From the NCBI RefSeq assembly GCF_004803695.1, contig NZ_CP039393.1:1-64000 (forward strand): a stretch of 64,000 nucleotides of DNA, written 5' to 3'. This stretch comes from Muribaculum gordoncarteri. Its GTDB lineage: Bacteria > Bacteroidota > Bacteroidia > Bacteroidales > Muribaculaceae. Of the stretch, positions 235-35,824 are shown piece after piece; within the stretch, counting starts at the first letter, position 1, and every line of letters begins with the position of its first letter. Below the pieces are notes generated by a model, which was not told the origin of the DNA, searched no databases, and saw only the letters and a program-made list of their open reading frames with translations. Both the position numbers and the translations under genes were made by a program.

Positions 235-2937
235 ATGTCAGAATCTCCGGAAGATCTTGCATCAAAAATTCTTACATCGTTTGGTATTACTAATGCACTG
301 TGGCACAAACGCATTAATAATATCACTGGTAAGAATATCAGATTAGCAGTGATGTGTGCTCAAATTGCTTTGGCTGGAAAAAAGTATAACGATTTAATTA
401 ATGTGGAAGGGGTTTATGACGCATATTACAAACCTTTCTTTGAGCGTTTAATTTCGGATTGTACGGATTGTAAGCTAATCAAGGTAGTTGCAATTATTTC
501 TTTTTACAAAGTTGTTGATTTAGAGGAGACTTCATTATTAGATCAAATTGAACACGTTTTTGGTCTTGAATCGTCAGAGTTTAAATCTATATGTCGTAAG
601 CTTGATGATTTGGAATGTATTAGTATAACAGATGATGATATTGCTACTATAGAGGATCAAAATTTTGGAACTTATGCATTCTATAAATGTTTCTATGTCC
701 TTAAAGAACTAAGTTTGTCGAATCTAATTGAGAACCTGCATAATCGAAGAGAACGATTGAGAGATAGTATATTTTCCGTATGGAATTGTTTCCATAAAAA
801 GGAGGTGATAGATTTCTCGCGAAGTTCTATCTCCGATGCATGGAAAAGTCTGTCTGTTTCTATCAAAGAAGAACGAGAAAAATGCGAGTTCTTAGAAGTA
901 TTTAGTGGTGCGATTCCTGCATTGACTTTTCTTTACATTAAGAATTTAATTAAAGAAAATAAATTTGATGATTTTAGTCATTCTTATGTAAATTCTGATA
1001 TAATTCTTTCCATACTTTCTAATTTCTCTCATTCAGAGGAATCTGATACCGCCACGGCATTAGCTCTCATAGTTGAGTTTTTGAAAAGCCATCCTAATAA
1101 AATGGAAAGTGCCGTAAAAATAATATCAGAACATTGGATATATGATGATATTGACTATGCCAATTCATACAAACGTGAAACGAATATCATTGAAGTTCTC
1201 ATAGATTTATCAAAGGAGAGTGAAACTGGCTTCATATTAGCTAGCTGCGTATTGCCATCATTTCTTAAGTTTTCATACCAATATTCACGCATAAAAGGAA
1301 GGAACTTCGTAATCGGACGTTATGCAGTAGTTATCACTGATGAACTGAAGACCAATCGTAAAAGAATATGGGAATGGATTAATAGCAATATCGTTAATTT
1401 AAATCAGTCAGTATTATTAAGTGATCTTTATGAAGATTTCTATGAAGTAAAATCTATTGCCCGAAAGCTAATAAGTGCTGAATTGGATTTTATAAACGAT
1501 TGTGTTAGCAAACTTAATATCACAGAAGATTTCAATGTGTGTAAGAATCTGGAAACTCTTCGTCAGAGAATAAAAGCTATTATGGGGAAAGACCTACTTC
1601 AGATAGATTGGTCTAAGGCAAATAGGCATTATCTTCTGGACTGTCAGATAAGCAAGGTTAGAAAACAGAGATGTAATAGATTATATGATTTTGAACGAGA
1701 AAATATTGCTCAAATAATAAAAACAAAATCAGTCACCGAACTCATAAATTTTTGTAAAGATATTGCACATATCTCACATTACAAAAATATCGGAGATGAC
1801 GTTAGGATATCATATGTAATTGAATGTGCTTTTGAACTAAGTCAGGAAAGTGGATTTGAACTTTGGCAATACTGTATTGATCAAGGATTGTATTTTATAC
1901 CAACTCGAATTATTTCAACGTATTATAGTAAGGGACATGATTTAGCAGAGCTTGTTGGATTTATTGGGTCTCAAAGGCTTAATCTAAAATCAGACTTATT
2001 GTTGGCTTATATCGTTATTATTGATAATGCATCATCTCTGGTTTCTGCATCGGATTTTTGTAAAGCTATACGTCATCACTCTTTAGAGTGGTTTACCATA
2101 GATGGTTTATGTAATAGATATTTTTCCGCTGAGAGTTTTGATAATGGATGTCGCTCCATAATGGCTGCTCTGATATACAGAATTCGCAATGCTATGTCTA
2201 TTGCTGGATCAGAAGAGTTTTTGTTGAAATTTTGCAAACGACATCAATCAAAAACAGATCTTGTCAAATATGCATACATCAGTGCTATTAAAAGTCAAGA
2301 TAAATTTGATTATAACCATAAATTACTTAAGTATTTATTGCAAATATCACCGCAGTTTTGGGTCGAATGTTGTAAAGCCTTTCCAACATTTGTCACTAAG
2401 TATCAAATCCATCCCTATGAGTTTATATGGGATATTGAGAACTATTCCATAGTTATTGAGTCGACACTACAGTATTATGGTGCTATGGCCTATTTTCCAT
2501 ATAGCGAAAAAGAGAATTTATATTCGTTCTTTTGTAATCTAAAGGATGATACTGCTGCAAATTTCATAGATGATATGATATATAAATACTGCCAAAACAG
2601 TAATATTTCCAGTATTATTTTTGAGATAATATCGTCATATATGGGTTCTTTTAGAATCCGTCATTACATTACATTCATTTCTTCCAATACCAACCTCACC
2701 GATTTTCGGCAATTAGATTTATTCCCTCATTCAATGACTGGCGGAGATAGTTTTGCACCTGCCATAAAATGTAGGATTGAGTTTCTGGAATCGCTAATTG
2801 TAGAGATAAGAAAATTGAAAGATAAAATAAATTATCTTGAGCATATTCAATATCTTACAGAGGAAAAAGAGTCATTGGTACGAGAGTATGAATTCGAACT
2901 AAAACGCGGTCACAAACATAAACTATACGATTTGTAA
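235..2937 (+). CDS. STAND-type NTPase, C-terminal part; large helical protein, defence-like
   Basis: A 900-residue AT-rich, Leu/Ile/Lys-rich frame. Its opening (SPEDLASKIL, then GITN..W..RI, then GKNIRLAVM) resembles the winged-helix/GxP region that follows the nucleotide-binding core of STAND NTPases, so the true protein probably starts upstream in the other frame and is joined to this one by removing one base at 215-219. The rest looks like a long all-helical superhelix without recognisable catalytic motif and ends in a charged coiled coil (about residues 845-890). I cannot name a family for the C-terminal sensor region. The stop TAA abuts the ATG of the RhuM-like gene, so the two are co-transcribed. 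The base composition is much more AT-rich than the core genes of the window, suggesting horizontal acquisition. If the frame break is real, the ATG at 235 would give a sensor domain lacking its ATPase. Confidence 0.6.
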   Translation: MSESPEDLASKILTSFGITNALWHKRINNITGKNIRLAVMCAQIALAGKKYNDLINVEGVYDAYYKPFFERLISDCTDCKLIKVVAIISFYKVVDLEETSLLDQIEHVFGLESSEFKSICRKLDDLECISITDDDIATIEDQNFGTYAFYKCFYVLKELSLSNLIENLHNRRERLRDSIFSVWNCFHKKEVIDFSRSSISDAWKSLSVSIKEEREKCEFLEVFSGAIPALTFLYIKNLIKENKFDDFSHSYVNSDIILSILSNFSHSEESDTATALALIVEFLKSHPNKMESAVKIISEHWIYDDIDYANSYKRETNIIEVLIDLSKESETGFILASCVLPSFLKFSYQYSRIKGRNFVIGRYAVVITDELKTNRKRIWEWINSNIVNLNQSVLLSDLYEDFYEVKSIARKLISAELDFINDCVSKLNITEDFNVCKNLETLRQRIKAIMGKDLLQIDWSKANRHYLLDCQISKVRKQRCNRLYDFERENIAQIIKTKSVTELINFCKDIAHISHYKNIGDDVRISYVIECAFELSQESGFELWQYCIDQGLYFIPTRIISTYYSKGHDLAELVGFIGSQRLNLKSDLLLAYIVIIDNASSLVSASDFCKAIRHHSLEWFTIDGLCNRYFSAESFDNGCRSIMAALIYRIRNAMSIAGSEEFLLKFCKRHQSKTDLVKYAYISAIKSQDKFDYNHKLLKYLLQISPQFWVECCKAFPTFVTKYQIHPYEFIWDIENYSIVIESTLQYYGAMAYFPYSEKENLYSFFCNLKDDTAANFIDDMIYKYCQNSNISSIIFEIISSYMGSFRIRHYITFISSNTNLTDFRQLDLFPHSMTGGDSFAPAIKCRIEFLESLIVEIRKLKDKINYLEHIQYLTEEKESLVREYEFELKRGHKHKLYDL

Positions 2938-3942
2938 ATGGATAACGGACAGATAATATTATTCCAGACGCAGGGCGGAGAGACGAAGATTGAGGTTCGG
3001 CTCTCAAATGAGACTGTGTGGCTCACTGCAGACCAGATGGCGGAGTTGTTTCAGCGCGACCGCTCAACTATACAACGTCATATCAAAAGAATCTACGATG
3101 AAGGTGAGTTAACCGCCGATTCAACTTGTGCATTTTTTGCACAAGTTCAAACGGAAGGGAAACGGCAGGTTGAGCGTAAGATTCCCATTTATAATCTTGA
3201 CATGATTATCAGCGTGGGTTATCGTGTCAACTCTCATCGTGGTGTGCAGTTCCGGCAGTGGGCTACTCAGGTGCTGAAGGAATATATGATAAAGGGGTTT
3301 GCGCTGAATGATGACCTGCTGAAAAATGCCGGACAAGGAAATTATTTTGATGAGCTGCTGGCGAGAATCCGAGATATACGCAGCTCTGAAAAGGTGTTCT
3401 ATCGCAAGGTACTTGAAATTTACGCCCTCAGCATCGACTATGACCCTCGCACCGCCATCACCCAACAGTTCTTCAAGACTGTTCAGAACAAAATGCACTT
3501 TGCCGCACACGGACATACTGCCGCAGAGGTTATCTATGACCGTGCCAATGCCGAAAAGGATTTCATGGGTTTGACAACATGGCGAGGTGCCATGCCTACC
3601 AAACATGAGGCTGAGATTGCGAAGAATTATCTCGCAGAAGAGGAGGTAGATATGCTGAACCGAATCGTCAACCTATATCTTGACTTTGCCGAACTTCAGG
3701 CCAAGAGCCATGTGCCGATGTATATGAAAGACTGGATTCAGAAGCTCGACGATTTCCTGAAGCTGTCGGGTAAGGAATTACTGAACCATGCCGGATGCGT
3801 CTCGGCCGAAGTTGCCAAGCTGAAAGCCAATGAGGAATACGACAAATTCCGTGAGCGTACCCAGTATCAACTATCCCCGGTCGAAATCCACTTCCTCGAA
3901 GCCTTTGAAGCCGAACAAAAGCGACTCCGCTCCAAGAAATAA
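2938..3942 (+). CDS. RhuM-family virulence/anti-repressor-like protein
   Basis: A 334-residue soluble protein. The N-terminal half has the RhuM pattern: a short strand segment (IEVRLSNETVWL), then a winged-helix-like stretch (LTADQMAELFQRDRSTIQRHI), a variable hinge, and NLDMIISVGYRVNS....FRQWATQVLKEY, typical of RhuM and related phage KilA/BRO-type modules. The C-terminal half is a helical domain with an HTAAEVIYDRANAEKD...GLTTW segment characteristic of longer RhuM proteins. RhuM was named from a Salmonella pathogenicity island; its biochemical role is unknown, though homologues are common in mobile and defence islands of Bacteroidota. The ATG directly follows the stop of the STAND-like gene (TAAATG), and the next gene starts 11 bases after its stop, so it sits inside an operon. 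Family assignment is fairly sure; function is not. Confidence 0.8.
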   Translation: MDNGQIILFQTQGGETKIEVRLSNETVWLTADQMAELFQRDRSTIQRHIKRIYDEGELTADSTCAFFAQVQTEGKRQVERKIPIYNLDMIISVGYRVNSHRGVQFRQWATQVLKEYMIKGFALNDDLLKNAGQGNYFDELLARIRDIRSSEKVFYRKVLEIYALSIDYDPRTAITQQFFKTVQNKMHFAAHGHTAAEVIYDRANAEKDFMGLTTWRGAMPTKHEAEIAKNYLAEEEVDMLNRIVNLYLDFAELQAKSHVPMYMKDWIQKLDDFLKLSGKELLNHAGCVSAEVAKLKANEEYDKFRERTQYQLSPVEIHFLEAFEAEQKRLRSKK

Positions 3943-3953
3943 ACAAAAGAAAA

Positions 3954-5369
3954 ATGAATACATCTAAAGATATATCGCAATTGATTGCCCATGCGAACGA
4001 AGACGATTTGCGCGATATTGTTTCAGGATGGGCCAACAAACATTCTGATTTCAAGGATTATATCCGAAATTGCCTCTGCCCTTCGGTAGAAAATGTGGAT
4101 TTCGCCCGCAAACTCAGTCAGGCCGTAAACCGCGAGACAAAAGAGTTCTTCTCGCGCCATGAAGTGAGAGAAGCGACTGACTGGAGCAATGTCTATAATG
4201 ACTTGATAAAGCCATGGAGCGAAAACGCAGACTCGCTGTCTACCGAGAAGCTATATGACCTGTGTGACGTAATAGTCAAAGAGGTCGGTATGCAGGTGAC
4301 TGATGAGGATTTTTACGGTGATGATTGGTATGGCGATGATTTTTCCGGCAGTATTCAGGATATAATGGATGTATTGGGAAACATTGTCGGACTTCTTATG
4401 ATTCGCGAGGATGTCAGCCACGATATTCTGAATTCTTTAGAAAAACTCATTAAAGCTGCTAAAAAGAAGGATGTGATAGACGACTACATTGGTTCGCCAT
4501 ACGATTTTATTCTTGAACTTATCGCACTCAGACGCGACAACGATGAAGTTACGTGTGGAATATACGATGCTCTGATTGACGAGAATCTGGGTGATGAGGC
4601 AGGGACGTGGGTGTGCCGTAAAATTGATTTTATCCGTTCAATGGGTCTTGCAGATGAAGCTCGCCAATATATGGAGGATGAAATACAGTATCCTGAAGTC
4701 TGCCTGAAATATTATAATGAGTTGCTTGATGCCGACAACTGGCTTGAGGCTATCCTCCTGCTCGACAGGGCGCAGGCAATCAAGGACAATGGCTCTTACT
4801 TCTATTCGCCAAAGACTCCGAACTGGCTTGAACTTAAACAGCAACTTCTTGTGGAACATGGCACATTGGAAGAACGTATAGATAATCTCAAACGCCTGTT
4901 CTATAACAGCTACAACGATAAAGCAAAATTCTATCATCAACTCAAGGAACTTGTTGACGGGGACAAATGGAACGCATTCTACCATAATCTGCTCTCAAAG
5001 GCAACCGGTTATAATGTCATTGATGAAATCGCCCCATTCCTCATAGAGGAAGGTGAGTTTGACTGGTTATTCCGTCTCGTGTCGGAAGCAACGGCAAAGG
5101 ATTCGACTGATTATCGGACTCCGTTAAAGTACGCCGGATCATTGCGTCAAACTCATTTTGAAGAAATGCAGGCGATCCTAATCCGTACAGTCCGTGCATA
5201 CGCTGCCGACCGTTTCCCCCAAAGAAAAAAGTCAATTCTTCCAAGTACTCATATTTCAGAGCAGACCTGGAATCGTTGTCAGAACTTGGGTATTCAAAAA
5301 CGCAAAAGGAAATTGTCGAATTTCTATTGCAGGAATATAGGTTCCGTCCATCTCTCACTAAAGAATTGA
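3954..5369 (+). CDS. Helical-repeat protein of unknown function, C-terminus frameshifted
   Basis: A 471-residue acidic, probably all-helical protein (repeating Leu/Ala/Asp/Glu helices, TPR- or HEAT-like spacing, for example the segments around residues 190-330). I recognise no catalytic motif; it loosely resembles the C-terminal helical part of SWIM-type proteins, which is a weak impression. The last roughly 50 residues (after DRF) are basic and low in predicted structure and look wrong. Shifting frame by one base at the C5/A6 runs (5216-5231) instead gives an ordinary continuation (SYFRADLESL, then GYSKTQKEIVEFLLQEYR, then SLTKELKSIKL) ending at TAA 5399-5401, which would overlap the ATG of the Fic gene in ATGAGTAA, a typical coupling overlap. 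That strongly suggests an ancestral reading frame of 3954-5401 and a one-base deletion or consensus error here. Confidence 0.6.
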   Translation: MNTSKDISQLIAHANEDDLRDIVSGWANKHSDFKDYIRNCLCPSVENVDFARKLSQAVNRETKEFFSRHEVREATDWSNVYNDLIKPWSENADSLSTEKLYDLCDVIVKEVGMQVTDEDFYGDDWYGDDFSGSIQDIMDVLGNIVGLLMIREDVSHDILNSLEKLIKAAKKKDVIDDYIGSPYDFILELIALRRDNDEVTCGIYDALIDENLGDEAGTWVCRKIDFIRSMGLADEARQYMEDEIQYPEVCLKYYNELLDADNWLEAILLLDRAQAIKDNGSYFYSPKTPNWLELKQQLLVEHGTLEERIDNLKRLFYNSYNDKAKFYHQLKELVDGDKWNAFYHNLLSKATGYNVIDEIAPFLIEEGEFDWLFRLVSEATAKDSTDYRTPLKYAGSLRQTHFEEMQAILIRTVRAYAADRFPQRKKSILPSTHISEQTWNRCQNLGIQKRKRKLSNFYCRNIGSVHLSLKN

Positions 5370-6948: not shown

Positions 6949-7109
6949 AATTTCAGTACATACAAAATTCTGAAAATTTTTTGCATTAATAGTTAATATG
7001 CACTTATGCTTTGGAGGGAAACGCGGTAAACCTAAAATTGGTTTAAATTGAAGCGTTTATTAACATTTATTATCTGAAGACAATAGGTGACAAACATTGG
7101 TTGGGTAAA

Positions 7110-26414: not shown

Positions 26415-26450
26415 GGAAGGTGGACGCCCACGCGCCCACCTCCTTTTTTT
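26415..26450 (+). terminator. pckA rho-independent terminator
   Basis: GGAAGGTGG-ACGC, CCAC loop, GCG-CCCACCTCC, followed by seven Ts (26444-26450). About 50 bases past the pckA stop. Confidence 0.85.
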
Positions 26451-26480
26451 GCGCCTGCCGTCCAATGGTGGGGGTGCAAC

Positions 26481-26489
26481 CCGCAAGGG
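26481..26489 (+). repeat. Left 9-bp target-site duplication of IS copy 2
   Basis: CCGCAAGGG, repeated exactly at 27873-27881. Confidence 0.95.
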
Positions 26490-27872
26490 TTCTAGTGGTC
26501 GGAAGACACAGCAAAAAGTCGAGCCTGGTTGTTATATCAAAAAAACAGATATGACTACACAGCACCCAAAAGATAATGTAACAGCCATCGGGGTGATAAA
26601 AAACCTCCCATACGATAAAATCTCAGAGATAGCGGCCAAAACAAAGGTCGATTACAAAGCAAAAAAATTACGTGGAGTAGACATGATGGACGACTGCATA
26701 TTTGCAATGCTGTCTTCATCTCAGGTCAGTCAAAGGATTATATCGATAAAAAATGGCATCCCGCTGATGACGGACACAAATGGCACCTCTGACAGCAAGC
26801 GCACAGTGGTGGTTCATTCATCTTTCAGCGAGCGGCTGACCAGGATAAATATAGATTTTTTCAAAGAGGCATATGCACTGATATGCTCCAAATATCTTAA
26901 GTATGTACCCGATGCTGTACTGGATGACATGCAAATAATACGCGTTGACAGCACCATGGTCGCCGAGACCTCAAACAAACTTGTGGAGGGTTTCTCTACC
27001 GGCATGACAAAAAATACATCTTCAGACCGGAGACAACTCAAGTACACCATGGCTTATAACGGACTCAACGTTGTGGCGGCCAATGCCTTTACAGAAAGGA
27101 CATATTCTGCCGACAATGCCCCGATAAGCAAGACTGTGGCACAATGTCTGCGTAAAAGGGCGGGGATGTCGAATGGATATGTCTTTGACAGAGGCTTGAA
27201 GGATGTGGATGATTTCAAATGTATCGCGAAACTGACAAAACAGAACCTGGCCTTCTTCGTAGGGAGGCTCAACCTAAACCGCTGCACACAACCCGTAGAA
27301 ACGATGTTGCCCGAAGACTCTGTGCTGGCAGACAATGAAGTGGTAGTGACCGCGGATGACAAGGGTTATCTCAGAGCCAAACAATCCGACAAATGGGATA
27401 CCTCATGCCTTTACAGGATTATACGGGTTAGATTCAAGACACCGCGTCCGGAATCTCCACGAAACACCAGACGCCACGCCCGACACTATGATGACGAGAT
27501 GGTCTTGATTACCAATAACTTTGAGAAAGATGCCATCGAAATTGTCCAATATTACCGAAGGCGCTGGGATATTGAGGTATTCTTTAAATTTCTCAAACAG
27601 GATCTGAGCTTTTCACATTTTATATCAACAAATGTACACGGAATACAGGTAATGCTGTATATGACCCTGATTGTCGCCCTGCTGGTTAAAATATATTCCA
27701 TTGCCCATAATATGGGGCCACGCATAGCCAAACAGGCCATCATGACAGAATTGATTAGATATCAGACAGAAACGATAAAAAGACTTGAGGCTCAAGTAAA
27801 ATCAATGAAATCAGAGGTCAATAATCTAAAAATCAAAATACTATCGTTACAAACCTCTTCCGACCACTAGAA
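26490..27872 (+). mobile_element. IS4-family insertion sequence, copy 2
   Basis: 1,383 bp, same 17-bp terminal inverted repeats as copy 1 and its own perfect 9-bp target duplication. It sits in the intergenic space after the pckA terminator. Orientation is opposite to copy 1, so the pair flanks gldK 3' part, gldL, gldM, gldN and pckA as inverted repeats. Confidence 0.95.
26551..27870 (+). CDS. IS4-family transposase, copy 2
   Basis: A 439-residue transposase nearly identical to copy 1 (three amino-acid differences: Asp in MMDDC, Ala in NAFTER, Leu in QNLAFF). The same DDE segments and Y-(2)-R-(3)-E-(6)-K signature are intact. The start ATG at 26551 is chosen because the upstream extension runs through the terminal repeat and host sequence. 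The stop TAG lies inside the right terminal repeat. Confidence 0.93.
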   Translation: MTTQHPKDNVTAIGVIKNLPYDKISEIAAKTKVDYKAKKLRGVDMMDDCIFAMLSSSQVSQRIISIKNGIPLMTDTNGTSDSKRTVVVHSSFSERLTRINIDFFKEAYALICSKYLKYVPDAVLDDMQIIRVDSTMVAETSNKLVEGFSTGMTKNTSSDRRQLKYTMAYNGLNVVAANAFTERTYSADNAPISKTVAQCLRKRAGMSNGYVFDRGLKDVDDFKCIAKLTKQNLAFFVGRLNLNRCTQPVETMLPEDSVLADNEVVVTADDKGYLRAKQSDKWDTSCLYRIIRVRFKTPRPESPRNTRRHARHYDDEMVLITNNFEKDAIEIVQYYRRRWDIEVFFKFLKQDLSFSHFISTNVHGIQVMLYMTLIVALLVKIYSIAHNMGPRIAKQAIMTELIRYQTETIKRLEAQVKSMKSEVNNLKIKILSLQTSSDH

Positions 27873-29609: not shown

Positions 29610-30611
29610 TCAGCGGGTGGGGACTACCGGCTTTATCGAGCCGTCGGGGTTGAACTCCATGCGGTCGATGCACACTTCGCGATGCCAGCCCGGGCCTTTG
29701 TCGCGGTCGATGTACTCCTTGTTGATGCGGTGGTACACGATGCACCACTCGTCGGTGCCGGGGATGTTGAGCACCGAGTTGTGGGCCGGGCCGTAGATCT
29801 CCTTGTCGGGACGCTGGATGAGTATCGTGCAGGGGTCGGCCACCTTGATGGGGCCGAGGGGGCTGTCGGATGTTCCGTAGGCCACGTGGTAGTTGGGCGA
29901 GCCCGTGTCGTCGACCGACCACAGGAAGTAGTAGATGCCGTTGCGGTAGAACACGTAGGGAGCTTCGCGGAAGGCGTAGGTTTCCAGTGTGCCGCCCTGC
30001 GGAGTCATCACGGTTATCGTTTCCTCCTTCAGCGAGGTCATGTCGTCGTTGAGTTCGGCGCCGGCCATGTAGCCGTTGCCCCAGTAGAGGTAGTATTTTC
30101 CCGAAGCCGGGTCGCGGAACACATCAACATCGATCTGCTGCCCATGTCCGGCGGGAGAGTCCTTGACTAAGGGGCGGCCGAGGTCGACAAATGGGCCTGT
30201 GGGGCTGTCGGCCACGGCAACGCCTATCTCCTTGCGGTTGTCCTCGGGCGAGTGTCCGCTGTAGTAGAAGTAGTATCGGTAGCCGTCGCCCTCCTTGCGC
30301 TCGATAATGGCGGGGGCCCATGCGTTGCCGCTGGCCCAGGGCACCTGTTCCGACTTCACGTCGAGCATTATGCCGTCGTCGTGCCAGTCGGTGAGGTTGT
30401 CCGATGAGAACACGTGGAAATACCAACCACCCCATCCCGGCTGTCCGTCGGTGGTGGAGTAGATGTAGTAGCGACCCGTGTTTTCCGAGTATAGGATTTC
30501 GGGGTCGGCGTGAAATCCGGGCAAAATGGGGTTGTGGGCCCGGTCGGATAATGTGTGGGCCGAGGCCGACATGGCGGCCGCGACGCAAAGTGACAATAAT
30601 ATAGTTCGCAT
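29610..30611 (-). CDS. Glycoside hydrolase family 43-like enzyme, secreted
   Basis: A 333-residue protein; the ATG at 30611 starts a clean signal peptide (MRTILLSLCVAAAMSASAH), whereas the longer upstream frame runs through the promoter. Five-bladed propeller features of GH43 are visible: general base Asp in NPILPGFHADPEI, the pKa-modulating Asp in QQIDVDVFRD and the acid Glu in YAFREAPYVFYRNGIYYF, plus WAPAII. Such enzymes cleave arabinose, xylose or galactose from plant polysaccharides; subfamily not assigned. It is the first gene of a two-gene unit with the GH30 gene and has a perfect promoter about 20 bases upstream. No SusC/D pair is nearby, so it is not part of a full polysaccharide utilisation locus in this window. 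Confidence 0.85.
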   Translation of the reverse strand: MRTILLSLCVAAAMSASAHTLSDRAHNPILPGFHADPEILYSENTGRYYIYSTTDGQPGWGGWYFHVFSSDNLTDWHDDGIMLDVKSEQVPWASGNAWAPAIIERKEGDGYRYYFYYSGHSPEDNRKEIGVAVADSPTGPFVDLGRPLVKDSPAGHGQQIDVDVFRDPASGKYYLYWGNGYMAGAELNDDMTSLKEETITVMTPQGGTLETYAFREAPYVFYRNGIYYFLWSVDDTGSPNYHVAYGTSDSPLGPIKVADPCTILIQRPDKEIYGPAHNSVLNIPGTDEWCIVYHRINKEYIDRDKGPGWHREVCIDRMEFNPDGSIKPVVPTR

Positions 30612-30638
30612 ATACAAGAAACGGATATTTGATAAACC

Positions 30639-30670
30639 CAAAGATAGCCAATAAAATCCATCCGTGCAAA
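30639..30670 (-). promoter_or_regulatory. Promoter of the GH43-GH30 unit
   Basis: On the minus strand: TTTG (30667-30670), 20-base spacer, TATCTTTG (30639-30646). Transcription should start near 30632, about 20 bases before the GH43 ATG at 30611. Confidence 0.75.
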
Positions 30671-30706
30671 TCCCGCCGGCCCCCGGGATGATGGGAGCGG
30701 TGTATG

Positions 30707-30730
30707 CCGGTATATAATCCGGTATATAAT
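30707..30730 (+). repeat. Tandem 12-bp repeat (two units)
   Basis: CCGGTATATAAT occurs twice back to back, about 40-60 bases upstream of the GH43 promoter; possibly a regulator site or chance. Confidence 0.5.
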
Positions 30731-30858
30731 AATGTGTAATGTTTGGAATGGATGGGAAATGGGGGCATGACGCATAGAGCGTTATATATGGGTATGGATG
30801 CTTGATGGGATGCAATTTCCCCACACTTCATTAGCAAATCCGCGCGTTAGCGCTTAGA

Positions 30859-30974
30859 GCTGCGATAGCTGCTCAATAAGGTTAGCCCCATGCTGCACGT
30901 GCCTTTAGGTACGTGCAGCATGGGGTCATGTGCAGGTTCCCCACCATACCGAGGGCTGCGTTAGCTGCCCAATA
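30859..30974. repeat. Composite intergenic repeat: direct repeats around a 15-bp-stem hairpin
   Basis: GCTGCGATAGCTGCTCAATA (30859-30878) and GCTGCGTTAGCTGCCCAATA (30955-30974) match at 18 of 20 bases. Between them CCCCATGCTGCACGT (30886-30900) pairs perfectly with 30911-30925 around a 10-base loop. The hairpin could block transcription between the invertible promoter on the right and the GH43 unit on the left. Confidence 0.65.
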
Positions 30975-31033
30975 GATGCCATCATCCCAGGGGATGGGGG
31001 TGCAGAGCGGGGATGTTAAAGTGAAAGGGGAAA

Positions 31034-31225
31034 TAGTATCTCTTGGTAGGAGATACTAACTAAGAGATTACAAATCTATGTAAAATGTTTGAATTAAACA
31101 AAATATTTTTTGGATAAAATGTGTTCAAGATGCTTAAAATTATTCGGTCAATTTTAACTTAAAATCACAACCCACCTGGCCCTCAGCCCCTTACCCCACG
31201 TAGTATCTCCTACCAAGAGATACTA
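31034..31225. promoter_or_regulatory. Invertible promoter segment (25-bp inverted repeats)
   Basis: Two perfect 25-bp inverted repeats, 31034-31058 and 31201-31225, flank 142 bases. Each repeat is itself two 9-bp inverted arms (TAGTATCTC and GAGATACTA) around an asymmetric 7-bp core (TTGGTAG on the left, CTACCAA on the right), which is the architecture of a tyrosine-recombinase crossover site. The enclosed DNA has no ORF but contains a perfect promoter. The core asymmetry means recombination between the two sites would invert, not delete, the segment. No recombinase gene lies in the window, so one encoded elsewhere would be needed. Confidence 0.8.
31071..31102 (-). promoter_or_regulatory. Promoter inside the invertible segment, now pointing left
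   Basis: Minus strand TTTG (31099-31102), 20-base spacer, TAGATTTG (31071-31078): an exact match to the Bacteroides consensus. As sequenced it fires away from the lipoprotein gene at 31397. After inversion the -7 box would lie at about 31181-31188 and transcription would start near 31195, giving a leader of about 200 bases before the lipoprotein ATG. No comparable rightward promoter exists in the segment now; TAATTTTG at 31258-31265 lacks a -33 box. Confidence 0.75.
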
Positions 31226-31396
31226 TGCGAGGAGGCCTTATCGATTAGGATATATAGTAATTTTGAGGAAAACGCTTACAGAGTTCAAAGTGTGGGATAG
31301 ACCATGAAATTACTGTATTGCAGAATGTTAAACTATATTTTTAGTATTTTTTAATAATTATTTAACCCAATTATTTACCATTTAAGTAAAACTACA

Positions 31397-34231
31397 ATGA
31401 AAAAGTTGACTTACTTAGTCGCTTCGCTGTTGACTACAGCGACAGTCGGTATGACTTTCACCGGCTGTATCGACAATGATGAGCCCTACGGCATTGAGCA
31501 ACTGCGTGGTGCCAAGGCTGAATTGCTTAAGTCCAAGAAGGCTCTTATTGAGGCTGATGCTCAGTATAAGCTTGCTTTGGCTGAGGCTGAAAAAGTGAAG
31601 GCTGCTGCTGAAGCTGCCAAGTTTGATGCCGAGCGTGCAAAAACCGAAGCTGAAATCGCTGAAATTCGTCAGAGAATGGATGATGCAGCACGCATTGCCG
31701 AGCAGACGTTGCAGAATCTCAAGGTTGCTTATGAGCAGGCCCTTTTGGCCTACGAGAAGGAAAGATTGGAACTCTCTCAACAGCAGCAGACTATTCTCGA
31801 TGGATTCTACAGAAAATACTTCACCGCTCTTAACAATTACAACGAGAAGTATATGGAGTATGTGAGAGCCCAGAAGGATCTTGTAGCGAATGCTCTCGAC
31901 CCCGATGGTATTGCTTATGATGCCAAGAAGCGTGTAGAAGATGCTGTTGCCAACGCTCAGAAGGCTCTTGATGACGCTCAGGCCAATATCGAGGACTATA
32001 ATGAGCAGCTCGCCGACGCAAAGACCTGGAAGCCTTCGGAACTCGGCGCAAAACTCACCGCTTATCAGGATCAGGTTGAGGAAAATACCGAGAAGATGAA
32101 GCTCATTGACCTTACTATTGCTGAAAACAACAACGAAAGCGAAGAGGGTAAGGCTCTTGTAGCAGCAAAGAAGGCTTTAGACGCTCTGTATAACGAAGAG
32201 GTAGAGATTCCGGCTTATACTTTCAATGCCGATGGCGCAATCACTATCCCCGGCTTGACTGAACCTGAGGAAGTTATAGGTGAAGGATGGAGCTATACTT
32301 GGAATAGTCAATACGGCTACCACGGTTATAATGACGCTTTTAACCGCCTTGGTAATTTCAAGAATAGCATTCGCCGTTATGTCCTTGATGACAACGATGT
32401 TGAGTGGACTAAGGCAGAAATCAATAACCTTGAGGCTGAAAAGAAGGAAAAAACTGCTGAATTCGACAACCTGTTTGCCGGCTGGAAGATGTTTGCCGAC
32501 GCTTATAATGTAGGTGCTGCTCCCAAGTATGACGCCATCATCGGTTACGATGAGCTTAAGAAGGCTGTTGACGCTTACAATGCACAGGTTCCCGCAACTC
32601 AGGCTGCCAAGGATGCATATTATGCCGCTCAGAAGGCCGCTCAGGAGGCTTGGGATGCTTATAACGAGAAGAACAATCTCGAAGGTGATGCTTGGAGTGA
32701 CTATTATGAAGCAGTAAATGCCGCAAACGAGGCTTATAATAAAGCTGTAGAGGCTGCAAATAATGAACTTGACAAAACTATCACCGCGCTTAACAATGCT
32801 GTAGTTAAGGCTCAGCAGGAAAAGAATGCTGCTGATAGCAAGTATATGATTGCACAGGGTTTGGCTGATAAGTACGATGATAACGACCTTAAGGAGGCCG
32901 CTTTAGCAGCTCTGAAAGTGGCTGAAGATGCAGCTAAGGCTCTTGAAACCGCTGAAAAAGCAAGAGATGAGCAGGCTCCTAAGGCTCAGGCAAAGGCTGA
33001 AAAGGCTAATGATCTTGCTGCTGCCACCCGTGACAACGCTATCACCGATGCTGAAAAGGCACGTAAACTTGCCATTAACGATGCTCCTCAGATTGCCGAT
33101 CCGTTGCTTGATGCCGCTAATGCTGCCGATAACAAGGTAAATGAGGCACAAGATGCTTATAACGAAGCATGGAATGAATTAAGCGAACTTGTTAGAGTAT
33201 GGGATAACGAAACTCAGAGTTATACCGGTGTTTATGGCGCTATAGACAATCAAGTTGAAGAGATTAATAAAGAATATCAGTATGAGGAAGAGTGGTATGA
33301 TGGCGAAAATTGGCATACATACACATGGATGCCTGCCTCCGATTATTCATTGTTCTATCAATTCGAGAATGAAGTCAACGGCTCTCAGTGGGATGCAGAA
33401 GTAGCTATACCTGAATGTTCGGTTGCTGATGTATGTGCTTATTCTTCTTCCAACATGAAATATAATATCATCGCTTTGTCAAATAAGATATATGGAAGTT
33501 ACTATTATGATAAAAATGATGACGATATCTTAGGCATACCTTCAGCTCAGTTGATACCTCTTACCAAGGACGATATCGACAAGATGCTTGCCAAGTATGG
33601 TGTAGATGAAATTAACTACCCCAACAGCTATAATTATTATTTTGGCTTGTTCGGAATAACTCTCTATTATGACAATCGCATCGAGGTAGCTAACGCTTAC
33701 ATCACCAACAAGCCTGCTATTGAGGCTGCATTTGAGGATGTTCAAACTCAGATTGACAATCTTGTCGCTTCTCGTGAAGAATTGTCAGATAAGATTGATG
33801 AAGCAGGCAAGGCTGTAGAGGCTGCTCAGGAAGCTGTTGATGAGCTTAACGCTGATTCATGGGCTGAGTATTATGAACTTCAGCGTCAGAATGATGTTGC
33901 CGATAAGATGATTATTGCTATCTCGGCGGCTGCTGAGGCAACCGGTGTTGCTCAGACCGAGCAGTGGACTCAGGAAACTATCGACGCGGCTATCGAGAAT
34001 ATCGAACAAAGCATCAAGGATGAAGAAGAGAGCATACCCGACCTTGAAGAGGCATTGGCAAGAGCTAAATACATCCTTGACCAGTACGAAAAGGGTCTTA
34101 TAAGCTCAGCCGAACTTGCAGCTCTTGATGTAGAAGAGGCTAAGCTTGCAATGGATGCAGCCAAGGAGAAACTTGACGCAGCCAAGGCTCGCCTTGATGC
34201 AGCTATCAAGAGTGTAGAGAACGCTGAATAA
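31397..34231 (+). CDS. Large coiled-coil surface lipoprotein, putative phase-variable S-layer-like protein
   Basis: A 944-residue protein. The signal is a lipoprotein signal with Cys24 (TFTGC), followed by IDNDEP; acidic residues just after the Cys resemble the surface-export signal of Bacteroidota lipoproteins. Residues about 35-300, 400-600 and 760-944 are Ala/Glu/Lys/Asp-rich and strongly predicted coiled coil with many heptads; they alternate with compact, Tyr/Trp-rich globular inserts (about 270-330 and 610-750). No enzyme motif. The following gene encodes an outer-membrane barrel, 50 bases downstream. The pair, behind an invertible promoter, resembles in organisation the phase-variable BT1927-BT1926 surface-layer locus of Bacteroides thetaiotaomicron; I have not tested sequence homology, so the S-layer role is inference. 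Confidence 0.75.
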   Translation: MKKLTYLVASLLTTATVGMTFTGCIDNDEPYGIEQLRGAKAELLKSKKALIEADAQYKLALAEAEKVKAAAEAAKFDAERAKTEAEIAEIRQRMDDAARIAEQTLQNLKVAYEQALLAYEKERLELSQQQQTILDGFYRKYFTALNNYNEKYMEYVRAQKDLVANALDPDGIAYDAKKRVEDAVANAQKALDDAQANIEDYNEQLADAKTWKPSELGAKLTAYQDQVEENTEKMKLIDLTIAENNNESEEGKALVAAKKALDALYNEEVEIPAYTFNADGAITIPGLTEPEEVIGEGWSYTWNSQYGYHGYNDAFNRLGNFKNSIRRYVLDDNDVEWTKAEINNLEAEKKEKTAEFDNLFAGWKMFADAYNVGAAPKYDAIIGYDELKKAVDAYNAQVPATQAAKDAYYAAQKAAQEAWDAYNEKNNLEGDAWSDYYEAVNAANEAYNKAVEAANNELDKTITALNNAVVKAQQEKNAADSKYMIAQGLADKYDDNDLKEAALAALKVAEDAAKALETAEKARDEQAPKAQAKAEKANDLAAATRDNAITDAEKARKLAINDAPQIADPLLDAANAADNKVNEAQDAYNEAWNELSELVRVWDNETQSYTGVYGAIDNQVEEINKEYQYEEEWYDGENWHTYTWMPASDYSLFYQFENEVNGSQWDAEVAIPECSVADVCAYSSSNMKYNIIALSNKIYGSYYYDKNDDDILGIPSAQLIPLTKDDIDKMLAKYGVDEINYPNSYNYYFGLFGITLYYDNRIEVANAYITNKPAIEAAFEDVQTQIDNLVASREELSDKIDEAGKAVEAAQEAVDELNADSWAEYYELQRQNDVADKMIIAISAAAEATGVAQTEQWTQETIDAAIENIEQSIKDEEESIPDLEEALARAKYILDQYEKGLISSAELAALDVEEAKLAMDAAKEKLDAAKARLDAAIKSVENAE

Positions 34232-34281: not shown

Positions 34282-35169
34282 ATGATTAAACGACTTTGCA
34301 CAATCTTATTGTCGGCACTTCTGGTCGCTCCCACCGTGTGGGGGCAGACCGGGGGATGCCCCGACAAGGGATGCGCATCGTTTGCACCGCACAAGGGTCA
34401 ATGGGAGTTCTCGTTGATGCTCGGCAGCAGCGGCTCGGTCTATGGCGACGACCAGACCGCCCTGCTCCCGATGTACAACTCCAACTACGGTTCGATCGGT
34501 CTTCCCAACGGCGGGACGGCCACTTCGGGCAACCTGAGCGGCTACTTGAACCTCACAGGGTTTGACAACAACAGTCTTGTAAACATACTCGGCATTCAGG
34601 CCAAATATTTCTTCCATGACAGCTGGGCGGTAAATCTGTCGGCGGGCATGAACATCGGAGTAACTCCGAAGAAGGACTATATCGAGGCCGAATATGAGGA
34701 TCTGGACAACCTCCGCATCCCCGACCAGAAGTATGTCAACGCGCAGGTCAACAACAACTGGTATATCAACGCCGGAGTTGACCGCTACTTCAAGACGAGC
34801 AACGAGCGCATACACCCTTATGTGGGAGTGACGATAGGGATGCAGATGGCCCGCATCCACACCAAGCAGCCCTACACGGGCATCATGGTTGACGATGAGG
34901 ACCTAAGCGACCTCGGCGAGCAAATCGAGGAGGCCGTCTACCTTGCCCCGGGTCGTGTGGGCCAGATGATAGCGCTTAAGGGCGCGGCTGTAGCAGGTAT
35001 CGAGTACAGCCTGACACGCGGCATGTTCCTTGCCGTAGAGTGTCAGCCGGTATCCTACCGCTACGACCTTATCCAGATGGCACCGCAGGGCTTTGACAAG
35101 TACAATCTGTGTCACCATAACATCAAGCTCATAGACATGCCTATCGTAAAACTCGGATTCCGATTCTGA
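34282..35169 (+). CDS. Outer-membrane beta-barrel protein, partner of the surface lipoprotein
   Basis: A 295-residue exported protein with signal peptide (MIKRLCTILLSALLVAPTVWG) and a short Cys-containing mature N-terminus (GGCPDKGCASF), followed by alternating beta strands (WEFSLMLGSSGSVYG, WAVNLSAGMNIGV, NNWYINAGVDRYF, IHPYVGVTIGMQMA, MFLAVECQPVSYRYD) and a terminal strand ending in Phe (VKLGFRF), typical of an 8-12 stranded outer-membrane barrel. It lies 50 bases after the lipoprotein gene without its own promoter and before a terminator, so it is probably expressed only with it. A role as anchor or exporter for the lipoprotein is inferred from this pairing. Confidence 0.75.
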   Translation: MIKRLCTILLSALLVAPTVWGQTGGCPDKGCASFAPHKGQWEFSLMLGSSGSVYGDDQTALLPMYNSNYGSIGLPNGGTATSGNLSGYLNLTGFDNNSLVNILGIQAKYFFHDSWAVNLSAGMNIGVTPKKDYIEAEYEDLDNLRIPDQKYVNAQVNNNWYINAGVDRYFKTSNERIHPYVGVTIGMQMARIHTKQPYTGIMVDDEDLSDLGEQIEEAVYLAPGRVGQMIALKGAAVAGIEYSLTRGMFLAVECQPVSYRYDLIQMAPQGFDKYNLCHHNIKLIDMPIVKLGFRF

Positions 35170-35254: not shown

Positions 35255-35824
35255 ATGAAGACAATCAATTTTATTGTGACGCTGCTTCTTGTGGCTGCAT
35301 TTACGGCCTGCGGCAGCGGAGCATCCAACAAGCCCGAATGTACGGTGACTATAGTGTCGCCGGGCGAGGAGTATGCGCAGGCGGTGCTCTACGATGTCGA
35401 CAACCGGGTGCTTGACTCGGTGGTGTTCAGCAACAACGAAGCTGTGATGGTGCGCCGCGACACGGCCGAGATGCCCTATCTGGGCTTTCTGCGCTTCTAC
35501 AATCCGGCCGACTCGCTCGACTTTATCGAGCTTCCGATGGCGGTTGAGCGCGGCGACGTGAACATCGACCTGAGCCACGGCATCGGCCTGTCGGGCACGC
35601 CGCTTAACGAGCGTGTTCACGGGTTCCTGATAGCTCGCGCACGGCTTAACTCGCAGTTTGACATCGAAAACGACACTACCGTGACGGTGGAGGGGCTTCG
35701 CAAGGCGTTCTCGCAGTTCTACGTTGAGCAGATTAATGCCAACCGTGATAATGTGTTGGGCGACTTCCTTCGTGAATCCTACGGAATCCACGTTCTGCCG
35801 GCCGACCGCCCGAAGCTGAAGTGA
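35255..35824 (+). CDS. Lipoprotein with DUF4369-like domain
   Basis: A 189-residue protein with lipoprotein signal (LLLVAAFTAC, Cys19 counted from the ATG at 35255; the TTG two codons earlier is not preferred). The body (VTIVSPGEEYAQAVLYDVDNRVLDSVVF... broken beta strands, then NERVHGFLIARARL and LRKAFSQFYVEQINANRDN) resembles the N-terminal DUF4369 region that in Bacteroidota often precedes a TlpA-type thioredoxin domain, but here the thioredoxin part is absent: the protein stops after GIHVLPADRPKLK. It may be a naturally short family member or a truncation. It follows the terminator of the barrel gene, so it may be a separate unit. Confidence 0.6.
   Translation: MKTINFIVTLLLVAAFTACGSGASNKPECTVTIVSPGEEYAQAVLYDVDNRVLDSVVFSNNEAVMVRRDTAEMPYLGFLRFYNPADSLDFIELPMAVERGDVNIDLSHGIGLSGTPLNERVHGFLIARARLNSQFDIENDTTVTVEGLRKAFSQFYVEQINANRDNVLGDFLRESYGIHVLPADRPKLK

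Follow-up and report, generated by a model that had tools for sequence, protein, structure and literature searches.

The window, by which we mean the whole 64-kb stretch of Muribaculum gordoncarteri DNA analysed here, contains a likely operon of three plus-strand genes, which encode a 944-aa surface lipoprotein with a lipobox-like TFTGC recognized by eye (31397..34231), a 295-aa barrel protein of the OmpA_like family PF16961 that is its probable anchor or partner (34282..35169), and a 189-aa small lipoprotein-like protein (35255..35824). The large lipoprotein appears to be a remote relative of the S-layer protein BT1927. It matches the profile of the BT1927 family, NF053619, at 8e-21 and 74.3 bits, and since this score is below the curated cut-off of 1300 and the match is strongest over residues 1-49, we refer to the protein as BT1927-like and not as a member of the family. 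Homologues of the lipoprotein likewise fall below the cut-off (32.5 bits for the one in G367, 53.7 and 20.3 for the pieces in G273), L083 does not match the profile at E 0.01, and a search with the profile over 393 genomes of the order at E 1e-15 is uninformative on relatives of BT1927, as it returned no match anywhere, including 14 controls and the genome under study. When the lipoprotein was compared with the PDB by sequence the best E was 0.48, and 23 genome_contigs stretches fitted its pattern, none of which was confirmed.

Of 397 genomes of the family, 4 encode the lipoprotein or a homologue of it. In all four the gene is directly followed by that of a PF16961 protein, i.e. by an adjacent outer membrane β-barrel partner, and then by a small lipoprotein-like ORF, which in G227 and G367 was recognized by position and the start of its translation and in G273 is 48% identical to that of the window. 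Between the window and G273, which belong to different genera, the barrel is 82% identical (34282-35169 versus 2545-3432 of L213), whereas identity of the lipoprotein is 41% in the compared part. This difference would be expected if an exposed coat diversifies while its anchor does not. The predicted product of the operon is an S-layer. The left neighbour of the operon is a minus-strand GH43 gene. Positions 30900-30992 belong to a repeat that is dispersed through the genome, where eleven further, partial copies match it at 79-100% over 23-91 nt. One of these copies is found to the left of a SusC inverton (L018, near 7086-7109), and a 19-bp hairpin (30886-30925) adjoins this repeat. A DDE transposase ORF (PF01609) at 26449-27870 is likely to represent an insertion sequence.

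Inverted repeats and promoter upstream of the operon

A repeat search upstream of the operon found a left site, IR-L (31033..31058, plus strand, core TTGGTAG), and a right site, IR-R (31201..31226, minus strand, core CTACCAA), the latter being the exact reverse complement of the former, on either side of a putatively invertible segment of 142 bp (31059..31200). The original prediction had been of two perfect 25-bp repeats 142 bases apart, and they are indeed perfect (100% complementary) and spaced by 142 nt, but their length is 26 nt. It was correct in describing 9-bp arms around an asymmetric 7-bp core, each repeat consisting of TAGTATCTC, the 7-nt core and GAGATACTA, and in placing the large lipoprotein gene about 170 bases to the right, as the start at 31397 is 171 nt past the 25-bp arm. 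With uniform bases, 64 kb of DNA would by chance contain about 8.5e-9 perfect inverted repeats of 26 bp whose arms lie within 600 bp, and the window has two matches to GTATCTC-N7-GAGATAC when up to 2 mismatches are allowed, as opposed to 0.13 expected from shuffles. Recombination-site-type inverted repeats around a short segment are one feature expected of an inverton, and it is this arrangement that is found here.

A consensus match to the Bacteroidales promoter, TTTG-N20-TAGATTTG, is found on the minus strand at 31071-31102, just as an exact promoter had been claimed between the repeats. It points left, away from the lipoprotein operon, the end of its -7 box lies 12 nt inward of the 25-bp IR-L, and it is the one full match inside the segment, patterns of this type being found 5 times in the window versus 0.37 expected. 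When the segment is turned over in silico the promoter comes to lie at 31157-31188 on the plus strand and is aimed at the lipoprotein operon, which bears out a further part of the prediction. As to the claim that the lipoprotein gene has no equally good promoter as sequenced, a lone -7 box, TAATTTTG, with no -33 element is present on the plus strand outside the segment (31258-31265), and because this box lies downstream of the segment, a weak constitutive transcription of the operon from it is possible. The GH43 gene has a promoter match of its own at 30639-30670, and the segment promoter is therefore without an obvious customer to the left.

The mechanism we propose is that a tyrosine recombinase would bind both sites, exchange strands in the asymmetric core and turn the segment over. 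In the orientation sequenced the single promoter would fire leftward and the operon of lipoprotein, OmpA_like barrel and small lipoprotein would be OFF, and in the inverted one transcription would start near 31192-31195 and proceed through IR-R into the operon, which would be ON.

Paired sites in the genome and in relatives

In the genome, which comprises 3.43 Mb on 3 contigs, the same site, with the core CTCTT-NNN-AAGAG, is found as an inverted pair at a minimum of eight loci, and one site type thus recurs at several distant loci in the manner of a master-invertase regulon. In the window pair (31034/31201) the promoter faces away from the S-layer genes as assembled. The pair at 288440/288760 has glycosyltransferase-like genes on its left and DUF3575-DUF3868-fimbrillin genes on its right, with the promoter facing away from the fimbria genes, and at 1013203/1013391, next to the NusG-like leader gene of a polysaccharide-type locus, it likewise faces away from the capsule genes. 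The promoter is directed towards the gene at 1642902/1643074 (a GH35/GH43 protein) and at 2721377/2721551 (a SusC operon), it points leftward between two divergent SusC operons at 2514081/2514428 and between two divergent DUF3575 operons, the right one with fimbrillin, at 2987293/2987702, and no promoter was found at 1557979/1558175 beside an M13 peptidase. Family labels at the eight loci are profile matches, while SusD partners, glycosyltransferase and capsule were read from position and translations. Judged from these labels, most of the seven other loci serve surface structures, and at the divergent loci a single promoter would serve either operon in turn. In L016 (6940-7600) and L210 (6565-8410) the inverton sits between divergent operons whose leaders or signal peptides are near-identical, the arrangement of an either/or switch.

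The 7-nt cores are reverse-complementary in 8/8 of these pairs, which were hand-picked as pairs. Among 34 pairs taken regardless of core, 30 have central trinucleotides that are reverse complements of each other and none has a direct repeat there, the remaining four being pairs that join neighbouring or chance sites, and the 3-nt core varies from locus to locus. A tyrosine recombinase exchanges strands between sites whose cores match, whereas protein-binding operators are under no such constraint, and since it is only strand exchange that requires it, the complementarity within pairs points to recombination sites rather than operators.

A second regularity concerns the promoter. An outward TANNTTTG stands beside a site in 7/8 pairs of the genome, the M13 peptidase pair being the exception, and when 53 unique pairs from this genome and its relatives are considered, 48 have an outward -7 box of this sequence within 40 nt of a site. 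It is present on one side in 47/53, on both sides in 1 and on neither in 5 (3.04 expected by shuffling; 2 inward-facing), and its distance to the site is 7-13 nt in 47/51 boxes and 8-11 nt in 44/51, with a mode of 9. The 53 pairs were chosen for complementary cores, the core rule being counted in the 34-pair set only, and include some near copies (L076/L088 are 97.9% identical inside), and the pair at 2514081/2514428 falls outside the motif of this set and is counted among the eight. At NusG-like capsule-type loci the promoter was by reading found towards the gene in L060, L097 and L217 and away from it in L075, L077, L084, L085 and L218, and the occurrence of both states is indirect, these being different loci.

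Both regularities bear on the notion that the two palindromes are an operator pair for a dimeric repressor or activator, perhaps by looping, and that no inversion takes place. Each 25-mer is near-palindromic and copies do recur beside promoters of functionally related genes, but operators need no rule by which an asymmetric core varies by locus and is yet inverted within 30 of the 34 pairs, the outward -7 box is confined to one end of the great majority of segments, and the pairs adjoin one clade of tyrosine recombinases and not others, as described below, all of which makes an operator pair a highly improbable explanation. A role of the site in RNA, as a hairpin or terminator with a 9-bp stem and a 7-nt loop acting on transcript ends or stability, may be suggested by the folding of IR-R at -9.4 kcal/mol, which only 1/200 shuffles equalled, and by its position near the 5' end of ON transcripts. 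It would however leave both the core inversion within pairs and the linkage to recombinases unexplained, and no terminator-like site was called in 30600-31500, so that as an account of the repeats it seems to us to have next to no probability, although a 5'-hairpin role could coexist with inversion.

As to the distribution of the site, AGTATCTCTTNNNAAGAGATACT was found in 25 genome_contigs stretches, of which 22 are titled Bacteroidales, two are unrelated and one is titled Clostridium, the site positions in this last stretch coinciding with those of G208, a genome of the same family. When up to 2 mismatches are allowed, the strict site is found in 24/397 family genomes (40 sites) and the reversed control in 18 (19 sites; tallied from the table), and since the control is nearly as frequent, some of the 24 site-bearing genomes are chance and co-occurrence with a recombinase gives weak support; of the 2-mismatch sites beyond the genome under study, many may be of this kind. 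Single sites with 3 mismatches are likewise often chance, as the genome under study has at least 64 sites with up to 3 mismatches versus at least 36 for the reversed control. The relaxed 17-mer ATCTCTTNNNAAGAGAT, with up to 1 mismatch, is present in 13/14 genomes of the same genus with 46 sites versus 0 for the reversed control. The homologous operon in G227, whose lipoprotein is 28% identical, has the same site 66 nt upstream of the gene; no convincing site was found in 3.8 kb upstream of the S-layer homologue of G273 (best 7 mismatches) or in the 286 nt read upstream of that of G367. In viral_contigs the strict site and the left flank with the site were both found 0 times and a looser form once, as a single site on a phage-like contig (L198), and a search of plasmid sequences gave no match. 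In another genome of the genus (L219/L232, G003:C1:1319830-1321270) a site pair 1.4 kb apart surrounds a 366-aa ORF that by eye is IS-transposase-like, which is perhaps an inverton enlarged by insertion.

The associated tyrosine recombinases

Some of the sites in genome_contigs stretches adjoin tyrosine recombinase genes, and the recombinases linked to the site form a clade that is 44-68% identical to its member L090. Among the best 30 clade matches of a protein search with L128, a clade member discussed below, 14 have CTCTN5AGAG inverted repeats nearby, versus 0/59 other tyrosine recombinases. In 21/47 rows, or 19/44 distinct genes, a site pair follows the recombinase gene at a distance of 5-990 nt 3' of the stop codon, the rows including three gene repeats (L059/L184, L150/L192, L139/L196) and three members first found via the site (L052, L059, L090), and in no row was a pair found 5' of the gene within flanks of about 1.5 kb or less. 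A PF00589 search found the clade in 11/12 site-bearing genomes, picked from the 24 for better sites, G244 being the one from which it is absent. The recombinase is furthermore present in 22/24 strict-site genomes versus 198/373 without the site (Fisher p 1.7e-4), the site set being noisy, and the clade recombinase is found in 12/13 other genomes of the same genus without the strict site, which suggests that the arm sequences differ within the genus. The L090 inverton (2334-4250) lies between the clade recombinase and a second recombinase-like ORF, and one recombinase may here be controlled by the switch of another; a search of the 40 nt next to each of its sites showed no -7 box, TAACTTTG being 54 nt from the right one.

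The genome under study has 38 PF00589 matches, of which two are clade members, namely the orphan L128 of 412 aa (G000:C1:984363-985601) and a shorter paralogue of 308 aa, L133 (C1:1122196-1123122). L128 comprises an arm-binding, a SAM-like and a catalytic domain (PF00589 36.7 bits, cut-off 27.1) and contains the motifs LRGMS, YVARHSWAS, GMGH and TTRIYL, with a Tyr in YVARHSWAS where XerC/D-like proteins have His. The conserved Arg, the GH and the Tyr nucleophile presumably lie within these motifs, and L128 has by this assignment the catalytic domain of a predicted tyrosine recombinase. No site pair adjoins L128, which is 28 kb from the capsule-type inverton, and none of the eight invertons has a PF00589 match within 16 kb. 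Since the two clade members lie elsewhere and L128 is without an adjacent pair, the enzyme probably acts in trans, and L128 or L133 is probably the recombinase of the window and of at least seven other invertons at capsule-type, fimbrial, SusC, peptidase and glycosidase genes.

The near-fixed distance between -7 box and site implies that the transcription start would fall on the border of the recombination site, and if recombinase and polymerase exclude each other there, transcription and inversion would compete. Bound recombinase would then block the promoter and active polymerase would shield the site, such that an expressed locus is protected and a silent one flips. We offer this as a speculation that we are inclined to doubt; if true, one orphan recombinase would set eight loci with each switch weighted by its own expression, and the site would in addition be the 5'-terminal hairpin of every ON transcript.

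The proposed inversion, known systems and the cell surface

The flipped form, for which the original prediction had pointed to related genomes, was not found in four comparable pairs of loci (L074/L096, L076/L088, L093/L095 and L054/L057), each of which shares one orientation. In G227, the contigs C20 and C38 have identical copies of the site at their very start or 30 nt into the sequence, copies that would face each other if joined, and these breaks suggest an assembly of mixed orientation, although the repeat alone could also cause a break. A former inverton that is locked OFF with no enzyme acting on it, its operon being silent or read from the box at 31258-31265, would agree with the uniform orientations, with the existence of that lone -7 box and with the finding that its contig has no PF00589 match closer than 228 kb to the locus. 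It is however unlikely, since the arms are identical over 26 bp and are the best kept of the eight pairs (25/25 versus 17-24/25), and since the two clade recombinases of the genome both keep the motifs conserved among aligned members. The phase-variable promoter switch, OFF as sequenced, that had originally been proposed is on the other hand supported by the site pairs, the core rule, the promoter rule, the recombinase linkage and the resemblance to BT1927, and we consider it very probable that the 142-bp segment is a recombinase-driven invertible promoter, i.e. an inverton.

This resemblance is to BT1927/BT1926 of Bacteroides thetaiotaomicron, where an invertible promoter precedes the genes of a 100-kDa S-layer lipoprotein and a predicted β-barrel partner and the S-layer is OFF in most wild-type cells (PMC12548429, PMC12578637), the window likewise having an invertible-type promoter, a surface lipoprotein and a β-barrel partner. 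The likeness lies in the proteins and the layout, the window lipoprotein reaching 74 bits where the family cut-off is 1300. Mpi of Bacteroides fragilis is a serine recombinase and differs in this from the clade linked to the window sites, which is of the tyrosine type (PF00589). According to PMC4747536, Mpi exerts global control of 13 inversions, seven of which are of capsule promoters, and the tyrosine recombinase Tsr19 (BF2766) of the same species inverts two regions and Tsr0667 three SusC/SusD clusters and nine other regions. Tsr19 and Tsr0667 are similar to what is proposed here in that one enzyme serves several surface-gene promoters, but Tsr19 is near one of its targets, whereas the candidates L128 and L133 adjoin none of their presumed targets in this genome.

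In the PMC open subset no paper on this site or recombinase clade was found among the matches listed, none on the topic of S-layers in Muribaculaceae by title among the matches listed, none joining inverton and Muribaculaceae or inversion and genera of that family, and none joining invertible promoter, recombination site and start site. Nor did any of the matches listed for invertible promoters or phase variation in the family contain its name. Bacteroides is already known for an invertible S-layer promoter (BT1927) and for master invertases (Mpi, Tsr0667, Tsr19). To these the present analysis adds the linkage of a site to a clade of recombinases, the spacing rule and the set of eight loci.

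Muribaculaceae are abundant in the mouse gut, and if our reading is true, the phase-variable S-layer shown in Bacteroides extends to this family. The code CTCTT-NNN-AAGAG, when paired and with a -7 box some 10 nt inward of one site, would furthermore find surface switches in assemblies without the need for reads. Finally, with candidate master recombinases named, it would become directly testable whether one enzyme remodels coat, capsule, fimbriae and nutrient receptors in a coordinated way, and it may be that a single enzyme reshapes the cell surface by way of these loci.
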